Positions 2,627-62,839 of a stretch of 64,000 nucleotides of DNA are shown here, piece by piece; positions within the stretch are counted from its first letter, which is position 1; each line of letters begins with the position of its first letter. Made by a program: the position numbers and the translations under genes. The notes under the pieces are model-generated. The model worked only from the letters and a program-made list of their open reading frames with translations, did no database searches and was not told where the DNA came from. Source of the stretch: Perkinsus olseni (taxonomy: Eukaryota; Perkinsozoa; Perkinsida; Perkinsidae); contig JABANP010000217.1 in assembly GCA_013115135.1 (NCBI GenBank), positions 1 to 64,000 on the forward strand. The letters are read 5' to 3'.

Positions 2627-2646
2627 TCTCCGTCGGAGACTCTCCG
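2627..2646. repeat. 14-bp palindromic insertion, X = TCTCCG
   Basis: X, t, X', c, X, exact. It lies about 100 bp upstream of the papain-like protease start, outside any exon. Confidence 0.9.
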
Positions 2647-3161
2647 ACTTGAGACGGTTACGTCGACCTACCACCGTCGGCGGCGTTTCTGTTCGCACGT
2701 TGAGAGGAATCACAACACGGTTGCCAGAGTGAAGGGAGAGGGTTATTGTTAAGCATAAGGTCCCCGAACTTAGGGAACCCATACCGATGGTGGAATCCTG
2801 AGATCCTATACTTGTGAGAGAACTCGTCACAGCTACAGTAATCGACCGGTCAATAACTATGGAGCTTTAGGCTTGGCGAATCTTCGCGGCTGAATCACGC
2901 CACAGTGACGACAGTGACTGTCGTCGCGACCAAACAGGCCTTCGCCTAGCGTCGGTTTTAGCACTAGTGACAGGTGGGTTATTTTTCCCATTGTATGTTA
3001 CGCAAGGTCGCGGACGAAGAGCCGGGATTTTCTCTATGGTTTCTGGTAACACAACAAATTCGATGCACAATAGGGGCCGTATTAGTTCAAGCAAAGTGAT
3101 GGGAGAGCACTTGGGGCCGGGAAACTAATCCGCTGGTACTCGAAGCATCCTGGATGCTCGG

Positions 3162-3527
3162 TCAAGACGTCGCAGAGTGCTCAATCTCATTTACCAGCCA
3201 GACTCTATCCGAGAGAGGCCACCCAGTGACCTTCAGTTTAGCCTTGGGAGGAGCCCCACCATCTCCGATAATGCCTTCATTTGAGGCGATCAAGATAACG
3301 CCGTCAGTAGTATGAATAATGAAGCCGGACTCTCCACTACGATGGACTTCGGTCGGAAAAACTATAAGTTCATGAGGCTTCTCAGCAGCAGGCTCTTTGC
3401 TGTGAAAGCGTCGGGTGCCGGCTTGCAGGGCGGCGGTGAGCATTCCGGTAGGCTTAGTCGCAACTGGACGACCCACCAGCGGGCTGCGGGCTGCTGTAGC
3501 CACCCTACGGACAGAGAGGCGATTCAT
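3162..3527 (-). CDS. hypothetical protein with a mitochondrial-type N-terminus
   Basis: The frame has an ATG at 3527 and encodes about 121 residues. The N-terminus MNLRS-like pattern (actual start MNRLSVRRVATAARSPLVG) is rich in Arg, Ser and Ala and lacks acidic residues, and RRFHSK follows; this resembles a mitochondrial presequence. The remainder (HELIVFPTEVHRSGESGF, then TTDGVILIASNEG) is amphipathic and not recognised. The same frame stays open upstream, so a longer product or a spliced 5' end is possible. No function can be given. Confidence 0.35.
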   Translation of the reverse strand: MNRLSVRRVATAARSPLVGRPVATKPTGMLTAALQAGTRRFHSKEPAAEKPHELIVFPTEVHRSGESGFIIHTTDGVILIASNEGIIGDGGAPPKAKLKVTGWPLSDRVWLVNEIEHSATS

Positions 3528-3737
3528 GGCGGCCTTTAGAGTCCTCCTCACTTTGCGACCTCCCGGGTTAGCACATCGGACGAGCCAACCGACGGTTGGG
3601 CTCTGAGCCCGCATGATTTCCTCGTTGATTCCCGTCTTGCTTTCCGCATCTTCTCGAACCGTTCTTCGAGAGAGACACCCCACTCTGTAATAGACGTCCG
3701 ACGCTTCATGAGGCAAGGGGGCTATGCAGATGAGCAC

Positions 3738-4382
3738 TGTTAGCGGTCCTTGAACTTGGAATGCTCACACCGTTAACGATCTTATCTTCTACCGAAAGGA
3801 GAAACCGAACCAGATCTTTATGATGTGGTGACGATAGTTGATGATGGAGAGCAAGCCGAGAGGTCTCTATATACAGCACAACAGCTGATATTGATAGAGG
3901 GAAGAGAGACTTATAACTATTCTCTACTGAGACAACGTCTAGTTATAGCTGAAGATAAAAGTCTAGGGGACAGAGAGATGATAATACACGAACCGTTATT
4001 GTGTCAAGTTCAGTGCTTTGCTTACTGGAGCCCGATCAGTCAGGCTCATGATGCTCCACTACGTTGTCAATACACATGTCACCAACCATCTGACGGCTCC
4101 AAGCAATACAACTGCATAACACAAAAACCACTGATTATGACAAATGGTGGTAGTGGGAACAAAAAGAGCACAAGCTGAACAATCGACTCAAGTCGGATCG
4201 GATGATGATATTGAAGACTTCTCCTGCAAGACGACCAACCGATAAGCTCGGTCCTGAGGAAGTGCTACTCATTATGCGCCGATCCTCTTGCGTATGCGTG
4301 CATAGCTGATTCCCATCGGGTAAGTAAGCTTAGAAGGTAGATAAGCTTTGTACTCCCTCTCGGCTTGCGTCGACTATGAGCA
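3738..4382. other. intergenic, no gene recognised
   Basis: AT-richer spacer between the possible mitochondrial protein and the EF-hand gene. The open frame at 3825-4178 (+) has no recognisable motif and no neighbours supporting it. Confidence 0.4.
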
Positions 4383-5685
4383 TCAACGAGGAAGCAACAG
4401 GAAGGCACACGAGTTGTAGGGCAGTCTATTGGGTGCTGCGAAACTCACAACTTTGCACGTGACAAGACTCTGCAGTAAAGACTTGAACTCCCCGAATTCG
4501 ATTTGACCATCGCCGTTGTCATCTACCTGAACATGTATCCTGGATACAACTTTGTACTCCCGCCTGGTGGCATGGTGGTCGAGCGCATATTTTCCATCGC
4601 AGAATCGATGTTGATTAGAGCTTCACTCACATGACGGGCATTGCGTCTGATGAAGCCTCGGTAATGATCCCTCCCGTAATCAGGTATCTTCATTTCTTGA
4701 GCAATTTGGCGAATCTCACCTGACGCCAAAATCAGCGATAAATGAAGAGGAGCTCGCCGGTGATCACTTACTGGCCTCTAGGAACCCCGACTTGTCCGAG
4801 TCGTAAAGATGGAAGATTCTTAGCATGGAGGACTCGTCGAGGTTCAGTAAGCTGAACTGCTTGGCTGTCTCGTCGGCAACCTGTTGGTAATGGCAAAGAA
4901 GCATAAAATATCAATCCCTACTTTCGCAGCGTAGGCCGCGTTTCTAACTGCGTTCATCGATTTACGCGAAGCCTTCTCGCGATCAATCGGCATGTGCTTC
5001 GGCCAGTGGTTAGCGAGTGCCTCGTATCTGCGGTCGGTCGACTTTGAACGACATCCGTTTGTGAAATTGCGGAAGGAGAGATATTTTCGCATAGAGCAAG
5101 TCCCAAGGCGTGCCGCGGCTAAGATCGGCGAGGAGAGAGACGTTAGTTTACAGCTTCTCGAAGTTTTCCGGTGAGACGAACTCTTCACCATCCGCGGTCC
5201 GGCAGCTGTAAGTGTCGAAGGCCTACAAGGGACCGTCATAATCGATCAACCAAAACACGGCCATAGTCGAAGGGAAAAGACAAGAATCTTGCGCACTGTC
5301 TACATAACACAGTCTGTGCTCATCCTAGCTTCGCATCCTGACTCTGTTCTATCTCGTTCACTATGAGCCCAGGCTACCTATGTTCTACAACTACACCTAC
5401 TGCATCGAGATAGTGCACGTCCCACAAGATGCCCGGTCCCACCCGCTGACAGAATTTTCGAAACCACTCTGGTCCATCTTCTGCTTCTGCGAACTCCGGA
5501 ACTCGCCGATCGAGTCCCATTTTTCGCAATGCAATGGTCAGCTCGCCTCTCCCGAGTTTCCTACGATAGTATCTTATGTTGACGCGTGCTCGAAGCAAGA
5601 CCCACCCTTTGGCATCTAGGTCGACCTCAGCATACAGCCGTTTGCAGTACGCGACCTCGTCCTTAGCAAGCCGGGTTGCTTTCGA
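4383..5685 (-). CDS. EF-hand calcium-binding protein, 5' end not found
   Basis: The first exon I can place begins after an acceptor at 5686-5690. It runs through YAEVDLDAKGWVLLRARVN and KLGRGELTIALRKMGLDRR to YLDA. A phase-0 intron leads to FDTYSCRTADGEEFVSPENF, which resembles the degenerate EF-hands of aralar and MICU proteins. A later exon has a canonical loop, DSDKSGFLEASE (D1, D3, S5, E12). The last exon has another, DDNGDGQIEFGE. Donors such as GTAAGTGATC and GTGAGTGAAG are good. The middle exons (about 4880-5200) are only partly resolved. Likely a Ca2+ sensor; a mitochondrial location is only suggested by the aralar/MICU-like segment. The true start lies upstream of 5685, perhaps near 5.8-6.0 kb. 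Confidence 0.7.
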
Positions 5686-5862
5686 CTGAGATAATGACGT
5701 AATAAGACCATCGAAGCGTGCGTAACAACCGATGAGGGATAGAACGATAACAAAGGGAAAGAGGAGAAATGGAGATTCTCCATTGGAGAAATTGCTTTGA
5801 GTAGCGTTGGAAGTAGACGCTAGGCTCTACCGCAACATGAAGACAGTAGACGTTTGTGTGCA

Positions 5863-6551
5863 ACCAAGAAGGGGGCCAGCGGTCCCCGTCGACCTACTAG
5901 AGAGATAGGAGAAGGACCCTCGTTCTTCCTTCGCCACTCTGCAGCGATTCTGTGGAACGTCTCACGCCTGACGACAACGAGTAAAGCTGTGCAGCACTTG
6001 ATCTCATTACAGCCTAGCATTTTCTTCACTGGGCCTTGAGGCCTGGCCAAACATGAGTCAACAGAAGACGGACTGAGGGCTTGTCGGTAGCGCGGAAAAA
6101 TTGAATAACACAAGTCCCTCACTGGGAAGTGTAAACGCTCGAAAAGATGAAGTAGCGCTGATCGGGTTCAAAGCGATGCGCTCGAAACTATTTCCAGCGA
6201 AACTATTCCCGCTTGAGTAGTAGGGGTATGATACTGGGTCCAACTCATGCAAAGATAAGGCTTCGGTCGATTTAACAAGATTCTGAGCGCTAGCATTTTC
6301 CGGGATGGAGTGGTATAGCCGACAGAGAAGAACCATAACTCCTGTCAATCACCAGTGACCGCTGCCGTAGACATGATCGAGATCTCAGGTATGCTTCTCA
6401 CGCAGGGGCAATGAGCACATCGAAGGGAACAGATTCGAGGAGCCTTGCAGAGTGCCGGGAGGGGACAGCATGTTAGAGGCCGACTGATTGGGAACACAAC
6501 ACCCGAGCTTTGCCCTCTGGAATCTCCAGATGTCTCATTAACACCAGGCAT
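5863..6551. other. spacer that may hold the 5' exon of the EF-hand gene
   Basis: A minus-strand frame from an ATG near 6020 (MLGCNEIKCCTALLVVV) could be a first exon, but no splice join is convincing. Nothing else is recognised. Confidence 0.25.
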
Positions 6552-17281: not shown

Positions 17282-18719
17282 TTTTCTCTTTGACTCGAGC
17301 TCTCCGATCTTCTCGTGTGTCTTTTTATGTAGCAATTCCATCTGCATCAAGTGGTGTGAGTTCTACTACCAATGAATGTAATTGTGATATGAACGTTTGA
17401 GTGTGATCATCCTGAAGGATTCATAACTCTTGTGCGGAGTTGTGTCTAACAGTTGGTAAGGGCAAGAGGGTTCTTCGGGGGCTTGAGAGGTCGTTCTTGA
17501 GTGTGAATTAGCAGCATTTGCCGCAAATGATTTGTGACCGTGAATTGTCAATGGCCCATTGATTAATTGTTTGCTTGGTGCTAAACGTAAAAGAGTTTGA
17601 GCTCGGTATGATGTGTGATGTGGTGTAGATCGATTGGGCCTTTATAAATGCGGAAAGTAATGGTAAGCTAAATCTCGGTGTCCTTGCTCCGGTATTGTCT
17701 CGGGAGCGCGCCGCCTCAAAAGCAGATTACTGTTTCTGTCAATTTCTTCGCTGACTAGAAAACCGTAGCGGGTCAATCGCATAGGCATGTTTTCTGTTCG
17801 AATTGCTTGCGAAGTATATGCCAATACGACCATATTTGTGCGCTTTGAGGCAATTCACGTAGAGTTGTATCCAGGCGGCCCCCATCTCTGGTGCCATGCA
17901 AATTATCTGGGAGTCCCAGACTGGGACGCACTTCTCCGCCCACCACCATCCCGACATGAACACTTGATCTATGTAACGCGGGCAAGACAAGTCTGCTCTA
18001 ACAAGAAACACTGCCGGAAGCGACTCGAGAGTAAAAGTTGATCGCAGAATGAGAATGCCGTATGCTACGGTGGGTTCCATTCTCCTATCTCCATTCAATT
18101 GCACCGGCAACCTTACGCAGGCCAAACGCGCCTCGTACCCATGCGACCTTCTCAAAGTTACAATACCACGTCTGGCCCAGAAGTCGCTGATTTCAACCCA
18201 GAAGTACTAGATTGAAATCGCCGACTTGGCGACTCCAGAAATTTAGGCTATACTCATACGTTCAGCATACGCATGCCCGCTAGGCTGAGCAGTCATTTTG
18301 TCGACTTCGCAGTCATCCTGCTGTTGTTCGATCAGCGCAGTATCAGGGTTGCAAAGGTTTCCTTCCCCCTTACTGTACTCAATGCCCTCGAACCGCTTGA
18401 ACGATAATGACGGCTCAACAAAGACGAGATGCACTAGAACTGATCTAGCGATCTCGATCATTGCTCGATCATAGCAATGATCAAGAGTGGGGTTTAGTAC
18501 CTGGTAGTTGGTATCACCGACTTGGTAAATCATTATGATCATAATATATAATAACTGATATGATGTGTATCATATAAGACTTGTGAATCACAATCGCATC
18601 ATAAACACTTAGAGTCCATTCACGGAGCCGACCACTCGGTAGCTACTGAATCAGCAGTACTGATTGTATTGCCAGCAAACCGTGACACACAGCATATCGT
18701 TTCGCGATCAAGAGAAAAA
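17282..18719. other. spacer with a dispersed repeat, no gene supported
   Basis: A minus-strand frame at 17739-18155 starts MRRSHGYEARLAC and resembles the start of a frame at 25308-25700. The shared DNA is patchy, so I treat it as a repeat and not a gene. An exact palindrome ATTATGATCATAAT lies near 18530. Confidence 0.4.
17925..18160. repeat. dispersed repeat, copy 1
   Basis: It shares the run CCACCATCCCGACATGAACA and a later block near 18120-18155 with 25130-25715, in the same order and orientation. Confidence 0.45.
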
Positions 18720-20326: not shown

Positions 20327-21127
20327 AATGTGGAAGATAATAACTCCGCCTACAAGCGTGGGTTCAAGGCAATCGTTGGGAAACGACAGTAAAGCTAGAG
20401 ACGCCGACTTTATTTCATTCGGCGACTCCATCCAGCGATCACGACCGGAGGATGCGATTGCTCAAAGAAGAAACTGCTCGAGCAGTTCTTTGCTTAGCAT
20501 CATCTAGTAATGCTGTGACAAAGCTCCTGAGACGCAGCTGATTATGATGTCGGGAAGTTCCCACCGGGAACGCAGGCAGAGAGATCTTGCGCTCGCGTTC
20601 CCTGCGCATGCGTATGGTGTAAGCAAATCGCCGGACAAACGGGCGGGAGAAAACGTGAAAGCACTTCGGAGGAGATGCCGATCAATACATCCTGTTCACG
20701 AGCTTCCTGCGTATATCATACAAACAAGGATTCCTGGAATCTGATTGCAAACACCCCTTTCCACCGGCGCTCAGCTAGATGTATCTTCGTTCTGGTCTGG
20801 AGAGCCTACTTCTCCCAAGGTATTTGCGTGTAGTACACCGTGTAGACTATACGTGTGTCGAACGCCATCTTCTTTCCATACATAGTATCCGGTGTGATGC
20901 CAAGTGACATGCTCGATACGCGTCTGAACTGAACGTAGATAGATAAACGGGGTTACTCCGGAGCGAAACAGCAAGCGCTGCTAGTAACGAAGGATGATAT
21001 CGAGGGGACGTGAAGGGGACAGCACGGAAAACAACGTCACGGTGAACAGGAGACACGATAGGGACAGTGGGGACCGCAGGGTCATGGGCCATGACCCCGC
21101 CATGACTCATGGCGACACCACCCACAA

Positions 21128-21180: not shown

Positions 21181-21201
21181 CCAATGTGCTCCAATGTGCC
21201 A

Positions 21202-21221
21202 ATGTGCAGCACATTATGTGC
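21202..21221. repeat. 14-bp palindromic insertion, X = ATGTGC
   Basis: X, a, X', t, X, exact. Preceded by three direct copies of CCAATGTG. Confidence 0.9.
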
Positions 21222-21409
21222 TTGCCACAAGCGTGTACTGAACGTCGATCATCCATCCAGCAAATCTTAGAGCTCAACAAATAATGGAATTTCCAGTTAC
21301 CGGACAGTGATTGAGCTAAACTTTACTCGAAGATCGCACGCCCTTTGCAGGCTGCACTGTGCAGTACATGCGTTGGTACGGGCACGGGCGAATCGTTGAA
21401 CATTCTTCA

Positions 21410-21429
21410 CTATGTGACATAGTCTATGT
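21410..21429. repeat. 14-bp palindromic insertion, X = CTATGT
   Basis: X, g, X', t, X, exact. A second, slightly decayed one follows 10 bp later. Confidence 0.9.
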
Positions 21430-21439
21430 CTCAGGTGAC

Positions 21440-21459: not shown

Positions 21460-21902
21460 TGCTAGAGCACACGCTTTGTGGCTTCCTGTCGCTCCGTGAG
21501 CCGTCGTCGCCAGCAAGATCCGTTCCAAAGCTATTGACTTTCACATCAAATCTCGCCATGAACGGTGCTGAAGCTGCTAATCCTCCTGCCCATCGTTGTG
21601 AGAAATCCGGCAGCGGACGTGGCGAGTACGAGAAGTATCATGCCGCACGACTCATGCAGATGCCCACATCATCACGATATCATCGTGTAGGTTAGATCGA
21701 ATTCAACAGATTTTTCGTGTGTTCTGCTTATTCTGTTGCTTGGCTCGTTTAAACGTCGCTTCTGCTACGCAGAGCTCAACAACCTAAAGCTACCCAGCCA
21801 GGAGCAGACCTTCTCATACCGTCCCTCCAGTCGCGGCTGTCTGTGGCACGTTGCATTCGCCTGTGCATTCGTGGTGCATCAGAACCACAACCGCCATGAA
21901 CC

Positions 21903-21922
21903 ATTGATGATCAATGATTGAT
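21903..21922. repeat. 14-bp palindromic insertion, X = ATTGAT
   Basis: X, g, X', g, X, exact. The related segment near 28205 has GAACCATTGAT only once. Confidence 0.9.
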
Positions 21923-22573
21923 CGAAACCGCCTTTGAAGCATACATTTTTTCCGGGGCAGTGCAACCGCATTCAAAGGCCTCACGTGGTAGTCTTGTTGG
22001 CCATTCTCGGACGGTAGAGCGTAACAGATAGCCGTGCATACCAGAGGAATTCCCTTGCCACCCTTGGGCGGCGTGTAGCTATCCGAGAGAAGAGTGACGC
22101 AGGTACCAACCACCAGCTGACTGAATACTGCCTCCGGAAAGGTTTCAGCCATGATGTCGTTGTAGAGAGAATCACGAATCTGTGTCGCTGTTCCATATCC
22201 AGGAGTTCTTTCCAGATCCGAACATACTATTCAACCAAGGTTTGAGGAGCGTACAAAATATCCCATTAGAGCCACCAACGTCCACGATACTCCTGACAGA
22301 CCATCCAAGAGCGGCTCTGGCGCACACCAGGCGCCTATGAAAATAATGAATACGCTGTTTTCTGCATTCATTGTCACCGATACATGGGCTTCGTCCAAAT
22401 CGCTGAATTTGTCCCCGATGACTCCAGGCATTTTAATTGAGGAGGAAGTCATATCTACTGCACCATTTCGACTCCTGACGTTACAGTCTGTACATTCTCG
22501 TGCTCAACAATGTCAAGGAGATTGCATCTCTGGTAAGTTCGAGCTTTATGAGAAGACAGCGATGCCTGGAACC

Positions 22574-22593
22574 CCCTTCCGAAGGGACCCTTC
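22574..22593. repeat. 14-bp palindromic insertion, X = CCCTTC
   Basis: X, c, X', a, X, exact. The paralogous site at 33192 has a single CCCTTC. Confidence 0.95.
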
Positions 22594-22602
22594 GAAAAGG
22601 CC

Positions 22603-22622
22603 GAACCTGAGGTTCGGAACCT
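22603..22622. repeat. 14-bp palindromic insertion, X = GAACCT
   Basis: X, g, X', g, X, exact. The paralogue has a single GAGCCT at this point. Confidence 0.95.
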
Positions 22623-22717
22623 CCCATCCGGGTCCGGGAATTCACGGTTGCAGAAGAGGGCCAATGCGCCGTCAGCTTCTACCTGGACGACTTGCGCCAA
22701 TCGGGGTTCTCGGCTCT

Positions 22718-22737
22718 GTATACGGTATACGGTATAC
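22718..22737. repeat. 14-bp palindromic insertion, X = GTATAC
   Basis: X, g, X', g, X, exact; X is self-complementary here. The paralogue has a single GTATAC. Confidence 0.93.
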
Positions 22738-23349
22738 CGTGGAAGATTTTTTACTGAGTTGAAGCTTTACGATGTGGACAGATACCAATCCCTTCCAACG
22801 ACAACTTCGGTAGATCCAGAATTACTTGACGCTATCGGTATTATTGTATGATCCAATTGGTGAACTAGTCACTATGCTATGGGAAAGAGGGTTTACTAAA
22901 TATGCCTCTACATGGTAGACATTTTCTCTGCCTCAACCTTAAGCTTCGCCGATTTCGAACTTCACTTCGCTCCAACCTGTTGTCTACGGACTGGACATCA
23001 TCGCATACCTTAGTAGCAACAGGATTATCCGATCCGGAGGCGTCGGCGTAGAGCGAGATGATGAGTTGGGCCACAAAGAAGTTTTAGGCGAGCTTCGGAG
23101 ACGTTCTGAACACTCCTATGCAAGAAATTCGCTTTGGGACAACTACGTGGGCGTGAATGCGTATGTGGACTCACAAACGAGTAATGTTTCGGACCAGCTC
23201 ACTGAGGGATGGACAGAGGTTGAAGTCACTTCATTATTCTCGTCAGTTCGCTCCGATGGTTCTAGCCGTTACCAAGCGCGTCAACCCAGCGGATAGAATA
23301 GTGGTTTATCTGGGTTAGAACAGGTACGAAGGGCATAGCTGCTATGCTG

Positions 23350-23803: not shown

Positions 23804-24139
23804 GCGAGTGCGAATTATTCACGAACAAGATATTTGGTTGAGTTAGTTCTATGGGCGAGCCACTCTTTCACCCACATGATGAGCATGGCGTCTGCATGGT
23901 GCCTGAGTCAGGCAGCCTGACAAGGGGATCGACAATGTACGTGCTTAATTTCCCCAAACGCATTGCTGCAATCCAATGCAGCGATAGCCCATGGATTGTT
24001 GCGACTCGGAGACCGTTTGATATGGTTGACCAGCTTCGTGGTACTTCGAATGAACTTCGTGGTACTTATTCGGTGAATAAGCATACGAGATATCAGACCG
24101 AAGTAGCACTCGTGTCTAGAAACGAGCTGCAGATGTACC

Positions 24140-24159
24140 CCATGCAGCATGGGCCATGC
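24140..24159. repeat. 14-bp palindromic insertion, X = CCATGC (chained)
   Basis: X, a, X', g, X, exact; it continues as a, GCATAG, a one-base variant of X', and runs into the next element. Confidence 0.9.
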
Positions 24160-24161
24160 AG

Positions 24162-24181
24162 CATAGGCCCTATGCCATAGG
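24162..24181. repeat. 14-bp palindromic insertion, X = CATAGG
   Basis: X, c, X', c, X, exact. It overlaps the tail of the element at 24140, implying successive events. Confidence 0.92.
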
Positions 24182-24750
24182 GCGCACAGAATAGCTATGC
24201 AATACTGCCCGGCGAGAACTATTTCATAGAGGTTCACCGCACTACTCAGTCGGTTCAGTCCGAGTCTATTGTCATCGCGCCAGAGTTCCTCCCGGATGGA
24301 GAAGGAAAACAATTTCGAACACATTGGAGCGTGTGGTACTTCGCCTGAGTTCTAAGCAACTTGAAAAACTCAGGTTCAGAGGGCTACTCATCGCTACTCT
24401 GAGCTGTTGGCGTAGGAACCGTTTACCAGCAGGGATCATGTCTGAGGTATGGGCAAGGTTGCAGATCCCATTGGTTTCTGTTTTCAGAGAAAACGACTCG
24501 GCCAATAGCTGTGCATCCGCACTCGATCGTAGTGGCGAAGAAGGCTATGCTTATCGAAGCTCACAAAGCCTATGGATAATAGGCTCTCTGGGCCACCTGC
24601 TGCAATTATGTGTTAAAGATGTATAACGTGGAGATGGTGAGCTCTGTATCATTGAATTGAACAGAATTCATCAAATAAATTAGCGCTAGACGAAATCTCA
24701 AAGCTGGCACATGTGTCAGACACATTTGGAAATGACGGTTTCCTAGTCTA

Positions 24751-24779: not shown

Positions 24780-24900
24780 AACTCGGCCTGAGCTTAGACA
24801 TCCCCGACTACCGTGGTTTTCACACTACGGCTGAGCCGCTATCAGTGGAGCAAGAGGTGCAGAGATTCGATATTCCTGCATATCGCAGTCTGACCACTGA
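24780..24900 (+). pseudogene. relic of the YTLPGDE secreted family
   Basis: Only the repeat core is left: LSLDIPDYRGF, then TTAEPLSVEQEVQ, then FDIPAYR, matching the IPxYRG and TVEPLSxE motifs of the intact copies at 40576, 42906 and 51479. No signal peptide or GDEQYW motif is recognisable. Confidence 0.75.
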
Positions 24901-25129
24901 ATCAGTGGCACTGATGTTCCTACGACCGGATTTCATTCCGGCAGCCAAGTCAAGTCAGATTCTTCTCCCTGGCGGCCGCGAACACGAGCGTCTCACCAAC
25001 TGTGAGTCCACGAGGTTGGCGGTCCAAGTCGGTGAAGAGGTCGGTGAGTATTCAGCTGGTTTCCGCGTGGAATGCGTCGAACCAACAACGCTGCTGATGT
25101 TCTACAGAGCTTCCTCGGAGCTTACTTCC

Positions 25130-25715
25130 CCATCCGCCACCATCCCGACATGAACACTTTCGTCACCAACTTCGGATTTCACGAGAACTCCGTGCAGCCG
25201 GTTGATCGTAGTACTTCGGAAGTACTACTTCCGCTGGTGAACGCAGAAAAGTACCTGCATCCGCTGGTGAGCTCCTGTGTCTTCTTTTCTGTTCTGTTAT
25301 TGAGTGGTCAGGTTCTGCTCGGCGCAGAGTAAAATCTAAGGCTTCTGCAAAGGGCAAGACTTCTACGGTTCCGAAGTGTACGGTGTTCAGTGGCATTGGT
25401 GGTAAAAGTCCAAGGTTTCCTCCCGGTACTACCGTTCGTAAGTCCGTGTCGAAGAATCATACTACTAGTAACTGCGCTCCACGTATCTCGACACGGGGCG
25501 CAGTTGGATTTGGGTTGGAATGAGAGGTTGGTTTCAACCCGTCGATCATTCGATCTCCACCAGATAAACTTGCTGAAGTATCGTGAAGAGATTGGCAAAG
25601 CGGTGAACTTTTTGGAAGTTTCAAGTGACGAAACCCATATCCTTGCCTTAAGTCTGATTCGACATCCAAATTGCGCCTCATACCTATGCGACCATTTCAA
25701 AGTTATGGTTTAATT
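25130..25715. repeat. dispersed repeat, copy 2
   Basis: Partner of 17925-18160. It also contains the direct repeat CCGCTGGTGA at 25229 and 25260. Confidence 0.45.
25212..25231. repeat. 14-bp palindromic insertion, X = TACTTC
   Basis: X, g, X', c, X, exact, inside dispersed repeat copy 2. Confidence 0.92.
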
Positions 25716-27560: not shown

Positions 27561-27720
27561 CCGTAACAGTTGTCACTCACCCACTTGATCACCTCTGTGT
27601 ACTCTGAGTCTGTGCACTCTGAGTGAGGTAAACTCAGTTTGCCAGGAGCCCTCACTGAGCGCTCAGTATCAGGTTACCGTCTGACTTCATTCTGCGCCTT
27701 GCACTCGCGCGTTGAGTACG

Positions 27721-27754
27721 TTGTAGACTACAACTTGTAGTCTACAACTTGTAG
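27721..27754. repeat. chained palindromic insertion, X = TTGTAG, two rounds
   Basis: X, a, X', c, X, t, X', c, X: five alternating copies of one 6-mer at a 7-bp step, all exact. This equals two successive 14-bp insertions. Confidence 0.95.
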
Positions 27755-27895
27755 AAGTGCACCTAATGCGGACTCGTCTTGGCTCAACTCGCTCCACTAA
27801 ACGTGATGTGAGATAATGTCAAGACAATGGCAAAAGGATATCGTCTAGCCAGGAGTCCGACACCTGGAGTCGGGAATCATCATAACGCCGCCACC

Positions 27896-35149: not shown

Positions 35150-35179
35150 GCGTGCTCGTCCTGATCCTTCTCCATTCTG

Positions 35180-35408: not shown

Positions 35409-35428
35409 GTCACAATGTGACCGTCACA
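35409..35428. repeat. 14-bp palindromic insertion, X = GTCACA
   Basis: X, a, X', c, X, exact. It creates the TGA that ends the first half of the broken gene. Confidence 0.95.
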
Positions 35429-35653
35429 TCGAAGTCTGTGCTCAGCACAGAGCCTGGAGAAGTTGCTCCAGTTGAGAGAATCCCTACTGAAGGGGATATT
35501 CACTCACAATCAAATACTAACTCGACCGCTCCACCCCAGGGGAGTTTCCGGGGTGGTGGTCTCACGAGCTTCGGGGTTACGACTTCGGTCAGGCGGATAG
35601 TGGTTGGGATGACGGCAGCGATGATGCTCTGAGAACGGCTGTAACAAGGATGA

Positions 35654-35673: not shown

Positions 35674-36112
35674 CTAGTGACTGCACCGTAATTGATTTGA
35701 TATGATACCACGTTTTGTTGTTCGCGTACGCTGATTCGATGTAGCCGCTAAGGATGTTGAGTTGGCGGTAGTCCCTGGGCGGAGGTGATCTCGGGTATAT
35801 CGCAAACGAAGGAACTGGTCGGAATTTTGCGGCGGGTGAAAGAAATAACGCGTTGCAACTCGTTGGATAAAACTTGGAAACTTGCAAAACTTTCGACTCG
35901 AAAGTTTCGAGTACGCCTGCGCATAATCGACAAGCAATTTGACGCTAAAGTTTCCCTTATGATTGAAGACGTCTGTATACCGATGATATAAGCATATGCT
36001 TGGATTAAGAAGGATCGCCAACGATGCACTGATGACTTGAGTTAACTGTGCGGGTCTCACTAGACACAGAATGGTCAACACGCAGCATGCATAAGCGCGC
36101 GCCCTAAATTAT

Positions 36113-36132
36113 GACCACAGTGGTCAGACCAC
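36113..36132. repeat. 14-bp palindromic insertion, X = GACCAC
   Basis: X, a, X', a, X, exact, directly after GCGCGCGCCCTAAATT. The same CGCCCTAAATT motif at about 43657-43670 has no insertion. Confidence 0.92.
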
Positions 36133-36237
36133 CACTGTATTGCGATGGGAAAACGCAAACCGGCAACCAACCACGAGCATATCCCTGTCCACGATGACAA
36201 CCGAAAGAGTTCAACGATGAACGGGTCAGCTAAATTG

Positions 36238-38494: not shown

Positions 38495-39097
38495 TATGGA
38501 GGTGTATGGAACCGGTAGCTCCTAATCCTCCCTGCTCACTACTGACCTGTCCCATCAATGCGTTCGCGATCTCTCCTAACCAACGCCACCTTCTCCCTGG
38601 ACAGAACCGAAGACACTGATGGACCGCAAACGCACACTCTACACCGGGCGGGATTGAGAGCCTGACCACCAACTTTCGAGGGCGAAGCAGCCGAAGAATC
38701 ACCTTGGAGCTGCGACCGTGCCGGATGTCACTTGCATTCAGCGAAGTGTCGTTGAGAGATTCCGATGAATCGTCGGCTGAGGAGACTCATCAACTTTCCC
38801 CTGCGCCCTTCACGTACCACCGAGGACCCCAGCATGATATTCCTGCTGCAGCTGTACGAGCCTCTCTTTTATACGTTGGATCCGACTCGACCTAGCAGAC
38901 ACAATCGGGGAGGTTTGCTGTCCCGGTGAGTAGACTGATGGGGCCATATAAAAATTGGAGAACTTCTATATGACCGACATCCTTCGCCTGGATACTGCCA
39001 GAGATAGGTAGGAAGAATGATGGACCCTCTTCCTGAGCTGACCGACAAGCTTCGCGCCAAAGCCTCCGGCTCTTGATGGTTATACAGGCTCTTCCCT

Positions 39098-39117
39098 GTG
39101 GGCGGCCCACAGTGGGC
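39098..39117. repeat. 14-bp palindromic insertion, X = GTGGGC
   Basis: X, g, X', a, X, exact. Confidence 0.92.
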
Positions 39118-40226
39118 CATCTCAGCTCCAATCCCCATCGATTCCATGTCTCCTAGAGTTCGCAACTGTAGAAATTCATATTAAATAACCCGGCCATCAG
39201 GCCCTGGTCTGCTCCCTTCTGATTTAAATTCAGGACTGGCTCTCGACTCCGAGCATGGCTCGGCCACACATTGTAGGGCGACTGTGAACATCCAAAAGAT
39301 AATACGCTCAGATCAATGAGTTAAACCCCAGAACCTCATCCGTGCATCCGCAAACTTCCGCGGAGAGATATGGACTCCTGCGGGGTCGTTCCCATGTCGC
39401 TCTGCTTTCTCAAAATCCATCCACTTCCAAGATTCCCACCTTCCTCCTCTATTTCTCAAGGCGCGCCCCTCACTACCTCCGATTCTCTCACACAGCCCCA
39501 CAAACTCTGCCGCGGATGGCCACCTGACTGTCGAGCGTGAGTCTCACAGCAAGCCTACCATATTTTCTGGGTAGAAGGGTTCCCACCTCAAAATCGCGAA
39601 TTCCGTACCAAAAAACACAGATAACTGCCTAGGAAAATTGTTGCCATTTCGGCTTTCAAAATCGGGTTTGCGCCCTTCTGCGGAGTGAACAGAACGACTC
39701 AGACTCAGACTGCTCAGAAAATCAATGAAGCAGCTAGAGATCACGAAGTCACGGTATTCGGGCCGCCGGCAGGTCAAGACTGCGATCCTTCCCAACGAAT
39801 TAACGGGCCAAGAGCACAGCGGGAACCATCCGATTCGGTCTGAATCATTCAGACGATCATGAAATTGAAGGTGATTTCGTCAGTATATGACCCAAAAGCA
39901 TCGCGAAATGTCGGATATCGCAATCTGCCACCATCCTAGGCGGCCAAGGCAGACGCATCGCTACCCCCGCTGCTGTCGTTGTACAGCTCCGGCGAGGAGG
40001 TTCGCCCATTTCCATGAGCTACTCGGAACTCAACAAGATCCGTGTCAGGGAAAATTACGCCACAGAGGAGCCCAAAAAAGTGTTGCCATCATAACCAAGT
40101 CGCTTCGCTATGATGACAAGCACTTCGTCGAGGCGTGATTAATCAACAGAAATAGTGAGACTCGCGCTGGCAGCCTGGCTCAGTGAGCCACTGAGGAACA
40201 AATGTCAGTCACTGAGTCACTGAGAC

Positions 40227-41200: not shown

Positions 41201-42060
41201 AATTTTATTGCCCGGGCATTACAAGCTCAAAGCTTATCGCCCATCACACGACCCGCGCAAGCGGATCCCGATATGGTTAGACCCAACCAGAGAGCCTTAA
41301 AACAACAGAGGTTAATCAATCTTTCATCATCAGCTCGGAGGTTCTGGAGAGGAACTTCGTCACAACTACGTCGTGCAGCCAGGGAAGGCGAGGAGGGAGG
41401 CATGCCACACTGGGCAGCCTACTAGGCATGAGGGAGAAAGAAGGTGAAAAGAGGATCAAGTAGTCCCAGGACCAACAACTGCGATTGCGGAAACCCAGAT
41501 GATTAGATGGTGAAAATTTGTGTAGTAAGGGAGGGCCCAACCAATACCGAGTCACCAGCAAGGGGGACGTATGGGTATGGCAGGTTCGATCTCTACTTCG
41601 TACCGGGAAAACCCCGGCCACCCTCACGCGACGTTGACGCGTAGAGACCTGTGAGGGCTCAGTCAGGATGTGAGGCGCGCTGAATATAGTTGCGCTGCGC
41701 TATCGTATCTTGCGCATTACTAGCGCACGCCCTGGATCGGCGGCGCTTCAAAAGAGAACGATCGTAAACGGGTCACAGGCACTCCCACGATGGCTCGTCG
41801 TCGATAAGCAGCATTGTGAGTCACAGTGAGTCATGGTTCATGACCACATCACAAGTTACGTTACGCAACAGCACGGGCCGCTGCCCACCGCGGGGTCGCG
41901 ATGAGCCAGCGAGGACCAAATCAACCCGACAAAGATCAGAGAACGAAGAACCTGAAGAGCCGAACAGGAACCAGAGAGAGAAGTACTATTGGTACCGTAG
42001 CAACAGGATACGCGATGGAAGGAAACCCGAGAGGGCAAATGAAGCCGAACCCAGAACCGC

Positions 42061-42080
42061 TTCACACTGTGAAGTTCACA
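42061..42080. repeat. 14-bp palindromic insertion, X = TTCACA
   Basis: X, c, X', g, X, exact. Confidence 0.92.
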
Positions 42081-42090
42081 GCGATAGACC

Positions 42091-42110
42091 CTCAGCCGCT
42101 GAGACTCAGC
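42091..42110. repeat. 14-bp palindromic insertion, X = CTCAGC
   Basis: X, c, X', a, X, exact, only 10 bp after the previous one. Confidence 0.92.
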
Positions 42111-42259
42111 GTTCTAGTACTCGGTGCTCACTAGGGAACAATGTCCCAGCGGCAGGCAAAAGCGCAGCCACAAAAGCGCCAGCAACTTGCGCTTTCTGGT
42201 TTCCATCTCCGATAACACCACACTCTTCCAGCAATCCTTCCAAGTTCACTACGAGGAAC

Positions 42260-42279
42260 CCGATAGTATCGGGCCGATA
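42260..42279. repeat. 14-bp palindromic insertion, X = CCGATA
   Basis: X, g, X', g, X, exact. Confidence 0.92.
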
Positions 42280-42537
42280 CACTGTTCAATGACCAGTGGT
42301 CATATGAACGTTAATCCACAGAGTCAAACGCTCCTTCTTCAGCTGAGCGGTAATGCTGTACTGGGTTTGCTTCTCGGATACGGCTTCTCTGCCCTTAGAG
42401 GTCTATAATGCTCTTCTCTCGTTGTGAATTCTCTGGAGTCGAATATGCGGGTGATTGGTGATACGGTCGAACTGTACCACAAGTTGGGTATTATATCATG
42501 TTATGCTGTCCGGCCCGGACAAGCCGGGGGAGCAATA

Positions 42538-42557
42538 CGGTTGGCAACCGTCGGTTG
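42538..42557. repeat. 14-bp palindromic insertion, X = CGGTTG
   Basis: X, g, X', t, X, exact. Confidence 0.92.
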
Positions 42558-42802
42558 CAACCACCAAACCGGCGCCGGGCTGCAGGACCGGGTTCTCCCG
42601 CTCCTGCACCCCCCCAACCTCAGTCCAGCCGACAACACTGCTCGGAATGAACACACAGACTGTGGCCATTCTCGCAGATAATTCACACTGTGGATTGCAC
42701 AGGAGAAATCGGCGATGTTTCCCCCTGTAGAAGAGCTCCCCATAGAGCAAAGATTGCGCTGCGCAGTAATGCACCAGGAACCACCAACGCACGAAGCCCT
42801 TG

Positions 42803-52288: not shown

Positions 52289-52630
52289 CTACGGTTGTTT
52301 TGCCAGGACTTGCATATCTGAAATACCGGATCCCAGGTGGGAAGTAGTCATTCGAGGGGAAACATCGACTCGCCCCGAGCGCTCCATGCATAATAACAAC
52401 ATCACGAAAGCAAAGATCGAGGAGAGAAAGCAGATTGAGAACAATGAAATGTCAGCGCGATATTGAGCCTTCCTTGCATACTCCAGCTGCCCTTTCCAGC
52501 GAACTGTGCATAGAGCCTCTATGATAGAGGAGCTCCCCCGGTCAGCATACTCGAACTCAGTAGCCCACGCATGCATAGAAAACATGAGGATAGAAGTCGA
52601 CGGTGCATGACAATCATTCAATATCCACAT
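52289..52630 (-). CDS. hypothetical small membrane protein
   Basis: A frame of 113 codons from an ATG at 52630 with one membrane segment (ISLFSICFLSSIFAFVMLLL). It follows BBS1 closely on the same strand and may be an exon of something larger, since an acceptor-like CTTCTTGTAG precedes it. A palindromic insertion lies inside it at 52510, which argues against a conserved coding role. Not recognised. Confidence 0.3.
   Translation of the reverse strand: MWILNDCHAPSTSILMFSMHAWATEFEYADRGSSSIIEALCTVRWKGQLEYARKAQYRADISLFSICFLSSIFAFVMLLLCMERSGRVDVSPRMTTSHLGSGISDMQVLAKQP
52510..52529. repeat. 14-bp palindromic insertion, X = ATAGAG
   Basis: X, c, X', g, X, exact, inside the doubtful frame 52289-52630. 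Confidence 0.92.
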
Positions 52631-52663: not shown

Positions 52664-55600
52664 TTACCCAATAAAACGCTCCAGCTCACTACGCCGTACC
52701 GGCATATGAATAACACAGATAGACCTGGGCTTTGAACCATGCTCGGCCGCATCAATTACAAGTAATCTCACAGAGTCTGTGATTCCAGAGGCAGGTTCTC
52801 CGATGAATTGCAGAGGGATCTGATCATAAGATACTTGGTCTTCCTTCGTGAACGTCAGCCAACACCAACGCCCCTTCGTCAAGAGGGTACAGTGAACTAC
52901 TAAGGAGCCCGTACAGCACTGCGCGACCTACATAGAATGAATAATCAATGCCCGGCACTAGAGTCGGTAGCCGCATCTGCGGGGTGTCAACGCTGTACCT
53001 GAATGAAGGCCGCCTCGGGGTATCAGATTCCCCGACTGGTGATGGGACGCGAGGCGTACGACGCCCATCTGGCGATCTCTGGCGACGCTCGGCGACATTC
53101 GACCATCGCTTCATCCGGCCTGGAAATTGACGCAGTGACGGACGAGTGTCAGCAGAGCTGACTCAGCACCCCAGGCTGGGGTCCCCAGCTCACTCTGATC
53201 GAAGATACTTTCTACTATCATGTCAGCTCTGCGTGTTCTAGTACTATGATACGGTCCACTGCTTCTTACAGGGTAATCTCATTGTTAATAGCAGCTGAGG
53301 TTCGGCAGTACCGCAAGATGCCTTACAGCTGCGTGTTAGGGATGGTCAAGAGAAGCATATCAGTCAGAAGCCGCCCTCCGCCTCTCGCCGTTATTGAGAC
53401 GCTCAGCCGGAACAGTGGACCCATGCCTTGAACCTGATATAGGAGAAGTTGCCACAGCTAAGGGACGACGGGCCCAATAGTAAGCTCTGAGAAATCACAT
53501 AAAAAGCTGGAAAGGTCAAGCACAGCCACATACTTCATACAGTGATGTGCTCAAATTAGGATACAACCTGCATACCATACGCGGACCAACCACCGGATAC
53601 CTACCGAAGCCTTGACGTCTATCTTATCGTCTGAGCCGGAAGACTGCACTCTGGTGATTTGCCCTCTACGGCTAGCCGAGAGAATCTTCACATATTCGCG
53701 GGCAGTGCCTGACGAGACGCAACAAGCAAACTATCCACTAATGGACCCCTCCCTGTGGATCGAGTTTTACACTGCAAAAAAAGGAAATTTTTTTTGCGTT
53801 CTCAGAAAAAGTACATTATATCTGATTTCGTTTGACACAGGTTGCAAGGTTTTACTGTTTTACCATCAGATCAAACCGCAAACCCCCAAAGCAGTACACC
53901 GTCCTTACGAAGCCGCAGCTTGCATAGATCTCGTTGAAAGGCTCTGTGAATCTCCACAGGCTGCTCCCTCTCCCTCTCAGTCTGTTCTATATACAACCGC
54001 GTCTTCTTTGGCACCTGTCAGGGGATGTGGAATGGGACCCCAACCCTCCAGGAATCTACGTTCAATGGGATATCCTGCTCAGGGGGAGGACCCGCAGTGG
54101 AACCCTCTTTTGTATTCAGCTTGACGTCTCCTGAAGGACGGCAGTGACATAACGTGATGAGGACTTCCCTCTTATGCAAATAATCTCATATAACACTAGC
54201 AGCGTTCCGCTACGAACTCCTTCATACCCTTCTGATAAGCGATTCAACAGAGAGGGCTCGAGCACTCAGCCTCAGGGCATGTACTGCGTCCAAGTCGGTG
54301 GTCGATGAGGGCGCCGAGACGACTGCCGCGCTCCCGTTGGCCCAGTACTGGCTCACTTTGAAGGATCTTCAATATCACAGCTCCGGCTTTGGTAGAGACC
54401 GCCATCGTGGCCTCTTCCCGGCCATATGGCCCCAGACACACACCAGCAACCATATGCCCACCTCTCAACGTTATGGTATTGACCTGGCTCGTACGCATGC
54501 ACATGTCATCGAACACTCTAGGAAGGAGAACTCACTAGATGCTTGCCGTTGTACAGACGTATCTCGCCATTGCGCAGGGCCACAACGAGCACTTTCACTG
54601 AGGGAAAATGGAGGCTGTGTAATCACCCAGGAGAACCAACAGACGCCAACCAACTGGACGATGAACGGGATTGTCGAGGCACGCTGGTCCAAGCGGTCAT
54701 TACTAGCGGCTTCTTGCGACCATCTTGCAACTACCGTAATAGCAGACACATACTTGTTCCAGTCGTCTCCCAACTGAACTCCTCCATCGCGAGTATCGGG
54801 GCCGGCATGAGTAACGCGTGCATCTTCTTACCCTTCACATGGTAGCAATGCAGCCTAAAGTTCATACCTCGAAGGAGCATGATATTTTATGTTGTCACGA
54901 AAGCCGCGGTTGCTGCAAGATGATAGACTCCATACCACAGGATCTACACAGCCTCCCCTGCCTGTAGATCTGGTCTGATACACCGTCTCTCCACTTTTAC
55001 CACACAGACAATATTCTCACCCTCGCACCCGCTACTATCCGCCTGGCCGAAAGACCGCTATCCAGAGAGAAGAATACTCTCTCAGAGAAGTTTGGAAATG
55101 GCTAATCGCAAGTCTTGAAATATCAGCGAAGTCCACGAGGCGAGCGCCGGACTGTCTAGATGGTTTCGTCAGGTCGTTATGCAATACTCCGTAGGAACAA
55201 GCCAACTAAGTCCTCGAGGCCCCGGCCAAAAGACTCCGACTGAATCCAAGGGCGAAAGGTATTACGAACGGTCAAAATACCTATCGCGTCTCTGAGGTCG
55301 AAAGGTGCTGTGCGCAGAGAACATGCAACCAAGTGCATACGAAGCGAAGTAGCAACCTACATCCAACATAGATCATCTTGCCCAGCTTCACCAGCCCCGC
55401 AGGCATCGCGTCCAGGCTGATTTTCACATTCATAACCTGCGCAGCGAGAATCTCGTTCCACAAACATAACGCTGAGACCGTTTTTAGTAGACTCATTCGT
55501 TTCTGAGTACTACCAATGCCCTGCTTGAGAATGATTCGAGAAAACGCCACTGGCAAGAACCAGCAGTTGCAATTTTTTCCTTGCAATTTTCAGTGGCTTG

Positions 55601-61024: not shown

Positions 61025-61734
61025 ATGGGAGTTCAAGGGCGAGCGAGACTTTCTCGGGTATCTCGAGATACATTTCGAATTTCGCGACTGATGCAGGTTC
61101 ATCGCGTCAAAATCGGCCTCGGTCCAGTTCCTCGCGGACCGAAGGCGACAAGCAAGAGGAAGCTTTGCGCCTGGGATGGGTGCCTAAAGCAGGTAAGCAA
61201 CTGCGACTCAGGTTTGTACTGTAAACTGTTTTCCTTCTTCAGGCTCGCGACGGAAGCTTGCACTGCATCGGCCACGGCGGTGGTCGTCGGTGCAAGTTTC
61301 CAAACTGCACGAAGGGCGCCGTGGGCAGCAGCGATTTTTGCAAGGCCCACGGCGGAGGGAGGAGATGCACTGCGGAGGGCTGCACCACCGCTGCCCGCCC
61401 AGGCCCCCGGCAACTGTGCCAAAAGCACGGCGGTCGGGAGCCTAGGCGGGTTGGTGGTAGAGGTAAGTCTGGGTTGGCCACCCACAGAGAAGGTATGGTC
61501 GATGGGAGGTGGTTAGTCTATTCGGATTTAGACTCGCCTAGCTTTGCGCAGGAGTTGGTGGACATTCCTGCTTCTTCTTCTCAGGTTAGTGATCTGACGC
61601 TGGCGGTCGAAGACGGGAAGGGGGACATGACCATTTGGAGAGTGGACAAGGCTGAGGAAGAAATTGTTTTAAATGCTCTTGGTGATGGTTTTGTTTTACT
61701 TGATATTCCTCCTCAGGTACCGCAAGAAGGTTAG
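61025..61734 (+). CDS. protein with three tandem CCCH 'HGGG' zinc fingers
   Basis: Two exons joined over a 50-nt phase-0 GT-AG intron (61193-61242). Starts are possible at 61025 or 61091; I use the first. The fingers are C-x4-C-x10/11-C-x2-H: CAWDGCLKQ|ARDGSLHCIGH (split by the intron), CKFPNC...FCKAHGGGRRC, and CTAEGC...LCQKHGG. A basic stretch precedes them and GREPRRVGGRGKSG follows. The C-terminal 90 residues are acidic (VDIPASSSQVSDLTLAVED). This finger type occurs in WRKY19-like and related oomycete/alveolate nuclear proteins. A DNA- or RNA-binding role is likely but not shown. Confidence 0.8.
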
Positions 61735-61991
61735 AGCCTCTAACTTAGAGGTCGAAGAATGAAGATGTAATTCACGATCCGCATGACCGCTGTTGATTAT
61801 GTATCCTCTGTCCTTGATTGTTGTGTTGTATGAGTCTTGGGGCCGCCCTGATGGGGCCTAGTGGTAGAACGTCTTTCAAGATCGCCCGCTACAGAAACTT
61901 GATTAGAGTGATTCCGAGTAACTCGTGGCCCGAGTCTCGAGCCAAGGTCTCGAGCCTCGAGATCTTAGTGTCGTGTTATGGTCACCACATG

Positions 61992-62026
61992 GCGGTAAGC
62001 AGTTCCGCCGCGGAACTCCTTACCGC
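61992..62026. repeat. hairpin, 17-bp arms, one mismatch
   Basis: GCGGTAAGCAGTTCCGC, c, then its complement with one C-C mismatch. Confidence 0.88.
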
Positions 62027-62100
62027 GGATTCCGCGGCGCGGAACTTTCGCGGCACCGCCTGAGAGCGACGCAACATTTCCCACCTCACTGTTGACTAAG

Positions 62101-62120
62101 TCTCAAGTTGAGACTCTCAA
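62101..62120. repeat. 14-bp palindromic insertion, X = TCTCAA
   Basis: X, g, X', c, X, exact. Confidence 0.92.
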
Positions 62121-62152
62121 CTCTAAAGTTTCAAGTTGGCGCCAACACTGAC

Positions 62153-62172
62153 TTCAAGACTTGAAGTTCAAG
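62153..62172. repeat. 14-bp palindromic insertion, X = TTCAAG
   Basis: X, a, X', g, X, exact. Confidence 0.92.
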
Positions 62173-62819
62173 TTGGGACCCTCATAGTGAACGCAAGCCA
62201 TAGTGCAATGTACGACGCACATAGTATTAGATCTCAGTGGTTTCTTTAAGGAACTGTAAAGAACTTCCTTGCAGTTACAGCTCCAAAGACTTTTGCAGTT
62301 CAGACTCTAAGACTAACATTGAGACTTTCCCTATTCTTCATGGCATGCGTGCCACTAGCAAGATTCCAAGTTTCGGTACATGTTGCAAATTGCAAAACTC
62401 TTGTACGTAGTAGCGCTCGCCCGAAATAGGACCAGATTCCATCTTGACACCCTTGCATTGAACTCTGCGCTTCAAATTTGAAAGCTTCAACTTGAAACCT
62501 AGTATAGATTTGTTCTGATTGAAGAGTCTGGCTACTTACCATGCTTTACACCCCGCTGAGGAGATGTTGCGTCCGGCGCTTGTTGCTCACTTGCGTTGTG
62601 AAATGGAGCTTTTCACATGCCTACTCATTGTTATTGCCACGGCCCACTTGAGCGTATCGCATGTAAGGGCGATAAGCTCTGAGGTTGTAATATCCGGCAG
62701 TAACGCCTGAGTTGAGTTGAGTAAAAACATAACTGCTTTGCGTGCATGCTGGTGAGCTGGAGCCTTGAAATTGGAACATTCCTGAGTTCCAAACTCTCCC
62801 GGCGGTATTTTCTCTGGGT

Positions 62820-62839
62820 CTTGAAGTTCAAGGCTTGAA
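62820..62839. repeat. 14-bp palindromic insertion, X = CTTGAA
   Basis: X, g, X', g, X, exact. X here is the reverse complement of the X at 62153. Confidence 0.92.

Follow-up and report, generated by a model that had tools for sequence, protein, structure and literature searches.

Uniform 22-bp palindromic units in the genome of Perkinsus olseni: probable excision footprints of hAT transposons

The stretch analyzed here, which we call the window, comprises positions 1 to 64,000 of contig JABANP010000217.1 of Perkinsus olseni (assembly GCA_013115135.1), and it is rich in short palindromic units in which a target sequence is followed by its own inverted copy and then by the target again. A description made earlier from the letters alone (the original prediction) had presented them as insertions of 14 base pairs (bp) built of a 6-mer X, one base, its reverse complement X′, one base and X again (6-1-6-1-6), and had counted 32 exact sites and 9 with one mismatch. 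The pattern holds, as do its first and last exact sites (2627 and 62820–62839), but the counts were too low: our arm-spacer-arm scan of the window found 42 exact sites and 22 with one mismatch, some of which overlap (24140/24147 and 27721/27728/27735). The preference for arm 6 and spacer 1 was sharp, which did not refute the original prediction. At arm 6, every spacer pair other than 1/1 gave zero matches, and arms of 7 or 8 gave none at any of the spacer pairs tried (0–4). High counts at arm 5 (50 and 50) and arm 4 (64) were confined to spacer pairs lying inside the 6-1-6-1-6 sites, and the remaining pairs at these two arms gave 0–7 matches.

The spacers had been taken for free single bases, which they are not. 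Spacer 1 is complementary to the base 3′ of the pattern in 39 of the 42 sites, and spacer 2 to the base 5′ of it in 36. These results indicate a longer unit built on an 8-bp target T (t1 to t8): t1–t7, the reverse complement of the whole target (T′) and t2–t8, together 22 bp. The target thus measures 8 bp and not the 6–7 nucleotides of the stagger proposed earlier; we denote this geometry 8/1, for a target length of 8 and an offset of 1. With overlaps removed, the window holds 33 exact units, 24 with one mismatch and 17 with two, 74 in all. The units behind the 42 exact sites, one variant and two empty sites are as follows.

2626..2647: 22-bp unit, T = GTCTCCGA, exact
5769..5790: 22-bp unit, T = ATGGAGAA, exact
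17906..17927: 22-bp unit, T = TCTGGGAC, exact
21081..21113: variant T1–7, T′, CCC, T′, T2–8, with T = GTCATGGC; the extra CC and C are the complements of the left and right flank
21201..21222: 22-bp unit, exact
21409..21430: 22-bp unit, exact
21902..21923: 22-bp unit, exact
22573..22594: 22-bp unit, one mismatch (palindrome center); absent from the paralog at 33.1 kilobases (kb), where the aligner gap is 10, not 14
22602..22623: 22-bp unit, exact; the paralogous stretch at 33.1 kb has a 14-bp gap
22717..22738: 22-bp unit, one mismatch; empty paralog TGTATACC at 33308
22991..22998: empty site CTGGACAT, paralog of the filled unit at 33572
23900..23921: 22-bp unit, exact
24139..24160: 22-bp unit, one mismatch
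24161..24182: 22-bp unit, exact
24894..24915: 22-bp unit, exact
25211..25232: 22-bp unit, exact
27720..27755: nested units, putative first scar at T = GTTGTAGA, exact at 27720 and one mismatch at 27734
29365..29386: 22-bp unit, exact
29804..29825: 22-bp unit, exact
31839..31860: 22-bp unit, one mismatch
32285..32306: 22-bp unit, exact
33308..33315: empty site TGTATACC, paralog of the filled unit at 22717
33572..33593: 22-bp unit, T = CTGGACAT, exact; empty paralog at 22991
33918..33939: 22-bp unit, exact
34014..34035: 22-bp unit, exact
34283..34304: 22-bp unit, exact
34740..34761: 22-bp unit, exact
35179..35200: 22-bp unit, exact
35408..35429: 22-bp unit, exact
35890..35911: 22-bp unit, exact
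36112..36133: 22-bp unit, one mismatch
39097..39118: 22-bp unit, exact
42060..42081: 22-bp unit, exact
42090..42111: 22-bp unit, one mismatch
42259..42280: 22-bp unit, exact
42537..42558: 22-bp unit, exact
52509..52530: 22-bp unit, exact
53168..53189: 22-bp unit, exact
61730..61751: 22-bp unit, exact
62023..62044: 22-bp unit, exact
62100..62121: 22-bp unit, exact
62152..62173: 22-bp unit, exact
62819..62840: 22-bp unit, one mismatch (palindrome center)

As a wider sample, we used 20 further regions of the genome (191,867 bp; 255,867 bp with the window), a non-random set of which 12 were picked through hAT-domain matches, 7 through a repeat and 1 arbitrarily. They contained 107 exact 8/1 units, which gives 140 with the 33 of the window. 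The arbitrary 10-kb region held 12 exact units, and two further arbitrary stretches of 2 kb held 0 and 2. Among the 140 units there are 134 distinct targets, and the insert is the target's own complement, which bears out the earlier statements that no fixed sequence is inserted and that the target serves as the template for the added bases. The shared inserted sequence that a miniature inverted-repeat transposable element or a similar small mobile element needs is therefore missing.

The observation is real, strong and specific. When target lengths of 5–13 bp were combined with offsets of 0–3 (arms of at least 4), the 8/1 geometry dominated the grid. The runner-up, 10/3, gave 5 matches in the window and 14 elsewhere, of which 18 of 19 coincided with exact 8/1 units and the remaining one with a unit that has at most two mismatches; simple chance would extend about 2 and about 7 of the 8/1 units in this way, so the excess is mild. 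Models with few constraints gave similarly small numbers (5/1: 4 in the window and 11 elsewhere; 7/3: 3 and 10). Five block shuffles of the 255,867 bp yielded means of 0.0, 0.2, 0.2 and 9.4 matches at 0, 1, 2 and 3 mismatches, compared with 140, 69, 79 and 115 observed, an enrichment over shuffled sequence that agrees with the original prediction. After the removal of overlaps, 140, 66, 63 and 75 units remained. The one-mismatch matches comprise 48 transitions and 21 transversions, and this excess, together with the mismatch series, indicates units of many ages that decay through ordinary mutation.

We then assessed the whole genome with a purine/pyrimidine pattern that stands for one class of T. 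It gave 90 matches (56 + 34), 67 of which are exact 8/1 units with 30 different targets; one target is common to 9 of the 67, several of them in a tandem array. A control with a scrambled middle gave 0 + 0 matches, and the backwards version of that control gave 1 + 0. The backwards control of the pattern itself gave 18 + 18 matches at the level of the purine/pyrimidine string. This backwards string is itself the 8/1 model for targets in which t2 is A and t7 is T, and the ratio of 90 to 36 is consistent with the target preference described below. Extrapolation of the sampled density gives an estimate of ~33,600 exact units in 61.5 megabases; scaling by the ratio of found to predicted exact units in the class (67 to 164) lowers the estimate to ~14,000, that is, of the order of 10^4.

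Furthermore, paralogous copies show the sites before and after the event. We took the 60-bp flanks of 267 non-overlapping units with at most two mismatches and looked for the left and the right flank separately in the window and the 20 regions. A paralogous site was found for 44 units, yielding 57 pairs, in which a pair of two filled copies is mostly counted twice, once from each side. The gap between the flanks was 22 bp in 38 pairs, 8 bp in 10 and of another size in 9 (a unit shortened by 2 bp, a tandem array, a repetitive site that accounts for four pairs, a tandem duplication that accounts for two, and the pair L039/L033). The 10 pairs with an 8-bp gap come from 8 different units; the gap sequence is T itself in 6 pairs and departs from T by 1–3 bases in 4, these being diverged copies. 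The filled units carry t1–t7 on one side and t2–t8 on the other, consistent with an 8-bp target duplicated around a lost element. Insertions of at least 3 bp between paralogs numbered 62; 8 of them are 14 bp long, compared with 1, 0, 1 and 0 of 12, 13, 15 and 16 bp, and all 8 fall at 22-bp units. The copies, two pairs of them within the window, thus agree with the earlier claim that each event adds 14 bp to an empty site. In the frame at 32971–33747, the sole homologue found (FOZ63_032040) stops before the scar and is uninformative on strain differences.

The targets are not random octamers. Of the 280 positions t2 and t7 in the 140 exact units, 114 have the favored base, T at t2 or A at t7 (P = 4e-9); with each target counted once, the figure is 107 of 268 (P = 5e-8). 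The motif nTnnnnAn is thus a preference (0.41 vs. 0.25) and not a fixed motif; in addition, T is rare at t1, and A is enriched immediately outside the unit. The same preference has been described for the hAT elements Hermes and hobo, and the units match this hobo/Hermes-type choice. They also shun long open frames: only 4 of the 140 lie in stop-to-stop frames of at least 200 amino acids, whereas 26.4 are expected, and at thresholds of 150, 250, 300 and 400 amino acids the counts are 20 (42.7 expected), 4 (19.3), 1 (14.6) and 1 (10.6). Such a shortage is expected, as a scar of 14 bp shifts the frame. Three long frames of the window (7391–9478, 11358–14135 and 14960–17281) belong to one protein family with the FAD-binding domain PF01565, found by a Pfam search in the first two and assigned through homologues in the third, and share a repeated cysteine-rich N-terminal motif; none of the three contains a unit with at most two mismatches.

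Could the units be scars left by transposons that jumped in and out again? We consider it very probable that they are excision footprints of transposons of the hAT superfamily, given the 8/1 geometry, the complementarity of the outer bases, the target motif, the paralogs, the resident hAT elements and hairpin-tail inserts set out below and the genome-wide pattern. According to several sources (PMC5873905 and PMC4763223 among them), hAT enzymes leave hairpins on the flanks at excision. Insertion of an element would duplicate the 8-bp T, with one copy at either side of it. When the element is excised, its transposase would nick one base into each flank, and each flank would seal as a hairpin, the left one reading t1–t7 and then t8′ back to t1′, the right one being its mirror. 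If the hairpins were opened far from their tips, they would leave 3′ tails carrying T′ on the left and, on the other strand, T on the right; such tails would be complementary over T and could anneal, and fill-in and ligation would give T1–7, T′, T2–8. The product would be identical wherever the hairpins open, provided that the tails overlap, and would always be 14 bp longer than the empty site. On the other hand, tails joined without annealing should leave two copies of T′ or flank-templated bases. The palindromes are indeed centered, at an offset of one, on a base complementary to the one that would have adjoined the element (39 and 36 of 42 sites). The nested units at 27720..27755 would fit a first scar struck again at its own first 8 bases, with 14 bp gained per round.

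A scan for inserts built wholly of hairpin-tail bases found 164, of which 139 have the length m = 8. At m = 2, 3 and 4 there are 8, 7 and 1 (shuffled: 4.4, 1.4 and 0.8) and at m = 5, 6 and 7 there are 0, 1 and 1 (shuffled: 0, 0 and 0). The excess at m = 3 is small, and two of its seven inserts are one sequence in two loci; short-tail footprints (m = 2 to 7) were set aside as a class. Nine inserts have other lengths of at least 6, namely one each at m = 6, 7, 10, 13, 14, 19 and 30 and two at m = 16, compared with 0.0 in the shuffles. The two at m = 16 are apparently one site in two copies, and the one at m = 30, with a left tail of one base, may be an ordinary inverted repeat. Several of these inserts show two copies of T′ or flank-templated bases. 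The insert at m = 19 is the window variant 21081–21113, with both T′ copies and with CC and C matching the flank complements, which is the form predicted for two long opened tails that are ligated directly instead of annealing. Among the 66 one-mismatch units, the palindrome centers carry 9 and 9 mismatches, compared with ~4.7 expected, which gives only a hint of misrepair at hairpin tips; the right t2 also carries 9. A search for repair genes that might account for the uniform product returned one weak Ku match (28.3 bits) and nine family-A polymerase matches. Contigs C744 and C523 (G000) hold a family-A polymerase match in an open frame of 1,441 amino acids, perhaps polymerase theta, and the weak Ku match.

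The hAT transposase and hAT elements coexist with the scars in one genome. It contains at least 21 matches to the hAT dimerization domain, as well as DUF4371-type transposases; a search of solved structures with the transposase of L015 gave no match. We searched the window and the 20 regions for inverted ends of 11 bp next to a flanking duplication. Perfect ends gave 4 candidates with an 8-bp duplication, none with 7, 9 or 10 bp and 1 with 5 bp. The four are as follows.

L034: hAT element of 1,431 bp, ends TAGAGATGGGC, duplication GTCCGGAG, hAT domain match inside
L035: hAT element of 2,960 bp, ends CATAGGCGCCC, duplication GCGGTCGG, hAT domain match inside
L035:388–525: candidate element of 138 bp, ends CAGGGTGGCCG, duplication GAGAAGTC
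L037: less clear candidate, whose 8-bp duplication is itself a palindrome

A second full copy of the 138-bp element was rejected as a second insertion, since it has the same duplication and flanks and hence represents a duplicated locus. In the window, the one candidate with an exact 8-bp duplication matches at 10 of 12 end bases and spans two scars, and it was not convincing. In one hAT family, five of seven matched ends are 96–100% alike, and different octamers lie beside the end in the four of those five copies that are readable; the other ends of these four were not found, so the octamers are candidate duplications only. The transposase gene of the 2,960-bp element holds a scar and is open in one frame before it and in another after it. 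The deposited P. olseni protein FOZ60_008444, which is 100% identical to this piece of the transposase, ends just beyond the scar. Another protein, encoded in the window, shares 95% identity with P. olseni FOZ61_002840 and 84% with a protein of P. marinus, so that the genome agrees with the P. olseni assembly that bears FOZ60 tags; the spliced-leader motif of dinoflagellates, tried as a taxon test, had no exact match.

Some arrangements at hAT ends deserve mention. Near 4955 of L039 (reverse strand), the hAT right end GCCCATCTCTA directly adjoins GGGGACAG TGTCCCC TGGACAG, and these bases form a palindromic scar in the flank of the element itself. At L033:5380–6775, a lone octamer GGGGACAG precedes the downstream sequence common to L039. 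The L033 segment (1,379 bp) was taken at first as a resident element opposite the L039 scar and was then rejected, as the arrangement is different: its hAT end adjoins an octamer of its own, GGGGTGAT, and the lone T lies further along. The two loci may record an aborted or repeated event at one target. At L034:4939–4965, tandem copies of TCCGGAG lie beside the hAT end with the duplication GTCCGGAG, and their number differs between L034 and L038. A repeat at 30000–30142 of the window has six other copies that carry ~90–130 bp extra between query positions 105 and 108; the window copy is without this stretch.

Several points weigh against an origin in hAT excision. Scars greatly outnumber the resident hAT domains (at least 21), and most could not be traced to a parent element; none of the 57 paralogous pairs has an element still lying between two copies of T with a scar in the other copy. 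The genome-wide class count reached 0.41 of that predicted from the sampled density. Perfect 11-bp ends also gave 4 candidates with a 6-bp duplication, two of which are shifted readings of the 8-bp ones, and with looser ends (9 of 11) there were 14 candidates at 7 bp and 15 at 8 bp; with this contrast lost, the element search is informative only at perfect ends. We infer the hairpin-capped flanks from sequence, the flank-templated variants included. Finally, published hAT footprints are mixed and often short, so that a near-uniform product requires an unexplained host bias, and the tail-base scan is blind to deletion footprints, which makes 139 of 164 a share of insertion-type products only and not of all excisions.

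The original prediction had left the choice between snap-back synthesis, hairpin opening and template switching. Hairpin opening remains as the likely source. Template switching during replication or repair, with snap-back copying at random breaks and no transposon, would account for an insert that is an inverted copy of its neighbor and for the lack of a fixed inserted sequence, yet we regard it as very improbable. Template-switch mutations vary in length and offset, as governed by local microhomology, and a loop of a single base leaves too little room for snap-back copying. Such a process should yield products of various lengths, whereas one length and one offset dominate; their fixation at 8 and 1 speaks strongly against this mechanism, and so does the target motif. 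Similarly improbable, if a little less strained, is a hAT-like transposase, perhaps owned by the host, that cuts bare 8-bp targets, so that hairpins are repaired at most scars with no element ever present. This would suit the few resident elements and very many scars, and a domesticated enzyme of hAT type, Kat1, produces breaks whose ends are capped by hairpins (PMC4763223). However, T on both sides of the scar is most simply explained by an insertion that duplicated it, and Kat1, in the accessible part of its description, still cuts at element-like ends (PMC4763223).

There is also a slim chance that another superfamily with 8-bp duplications, such as the P element or Merlin, left the scars. 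Duplications of Merlin measure about 8–9 bp. We know of no description of one-base-offset flank hairpins for either, whereas the accessible literature describes them for hAT. In a published table the P element generates 8-bp duplications, and Merlin has been reported in Alveolata. The probability of an assembly or library artefact is close to nil, as units are shared at the same place by diverged paralogs (38 of 57 pairs, many of which enter the count twice, once from either copy), decay by point mutation (from 140 exact units to 66, 63 and 75 at 1–3 mismatches; 48 transitions to 21 transversions) and shun long open frames (4 of 140 in those of at least 200 amino acids, 26.4 expected). Excision of hAT elements is therefore the explanation that we prefer, and the units are most likely not a new class of inserted element, as had been proposed, but repair scars of an excised one.

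The kind of process, hairpin-mediated hAT excision, is already known, as are footprints of this sort from Ac/Ds. What looks new is the dominance of a single full-length product, at sites whose number we estimate at 10^4. Our literature search, from whose reach most subscription journals were excluded, found no report of such units in Perkinsus and no uniform hAT palindrome on a genome scale. It is conceivable, though rather unlikely, that repair is near-deterministic here: hairpins would be opened deep and their tails annealed almost always, hAT elements would ordinarily end by excision, and the genome would hold dated scars, tens of thousands of them, in their place, possibly as a result of transposon clearance by the host or of a domesticated hAT enzyme acting genome-wide. 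Earlier studies of excision scars, as far as accessible, each dealt with a few tens of them, in most cases at a single engineered site. A natural genome with an estimated 10^4 scars in one format shows in each the target, the repair outcome and, through decay, the age. Such scars would permit tests of hAT target choice, hairpin opening and jump rates over time, and would also show how frequently cut-and-paste elements transpose without an increase in copy number. If the units are, as is likely, scars of places where a hAT element jumped in and out, the genome would amount to a readable record of break repair. In practical terms, the units could pass for regulatory palindromes, and the gain of 14 bp shifts any reading frame that a unit hits.

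How do these units compare with known systems, as far as the accessible parts of the cited papers show? The introner elements of Amoebophrya, a related alveolate parasite, are likewise very many and small, with direct and inverted repeats (PMC7789003), but they are introns with direct repeats of 3–5 nucleotides, whereas the Perkinsus units are 22 bp long and avoid open frames. In rice, a comparison of alleles across the genome yielded 94 putative excisions of DNA transposons, 8 of them perfect and the rest with deletions, filler or both, and only 5 and 4 hAT cases (PMC4423477). That work shares with ours the genome-wide reading of excision repair; it differs in that the accessible part mentions no uniform palindrome. 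TcBuster and other animal hAT elements leave insertions of a few bases complementary to the flank, ascribed to hairpins, and deletions of up to 50 bp (PMC3499496); the likeness lies in the flank-complementary insertions, but these are short, and the part of the source at hand mentions no complete inverted target. The closest parallel is Ac/Ds, whose palindromes, like the Perkinsus units, have a center complementary to the base that borders the element, a feature explained by hairpin opening and end joining (PMC5873905). Their arms reach 20 nucleotides in Saccharomyces cerevisiae, and microhomology marks most footprints in S. cerevisiae and Arabidopsis and about half in Candida albicans (PMC5873905, citing others). 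At one site in C. albicans, 128 footprints were of 28 types (PMC5873905). An atypical Ds site in Arabidopsis gave 11 identical footprints of 17, with one base lost (PMC1978519); that uniform product loses a base, whereas the Perkinsus units gain bases. Thus, Ac/Ds gives many different products per site, whereas Perkinsus gives one full-length product in 139 of the 164 visible insertion-type matches.

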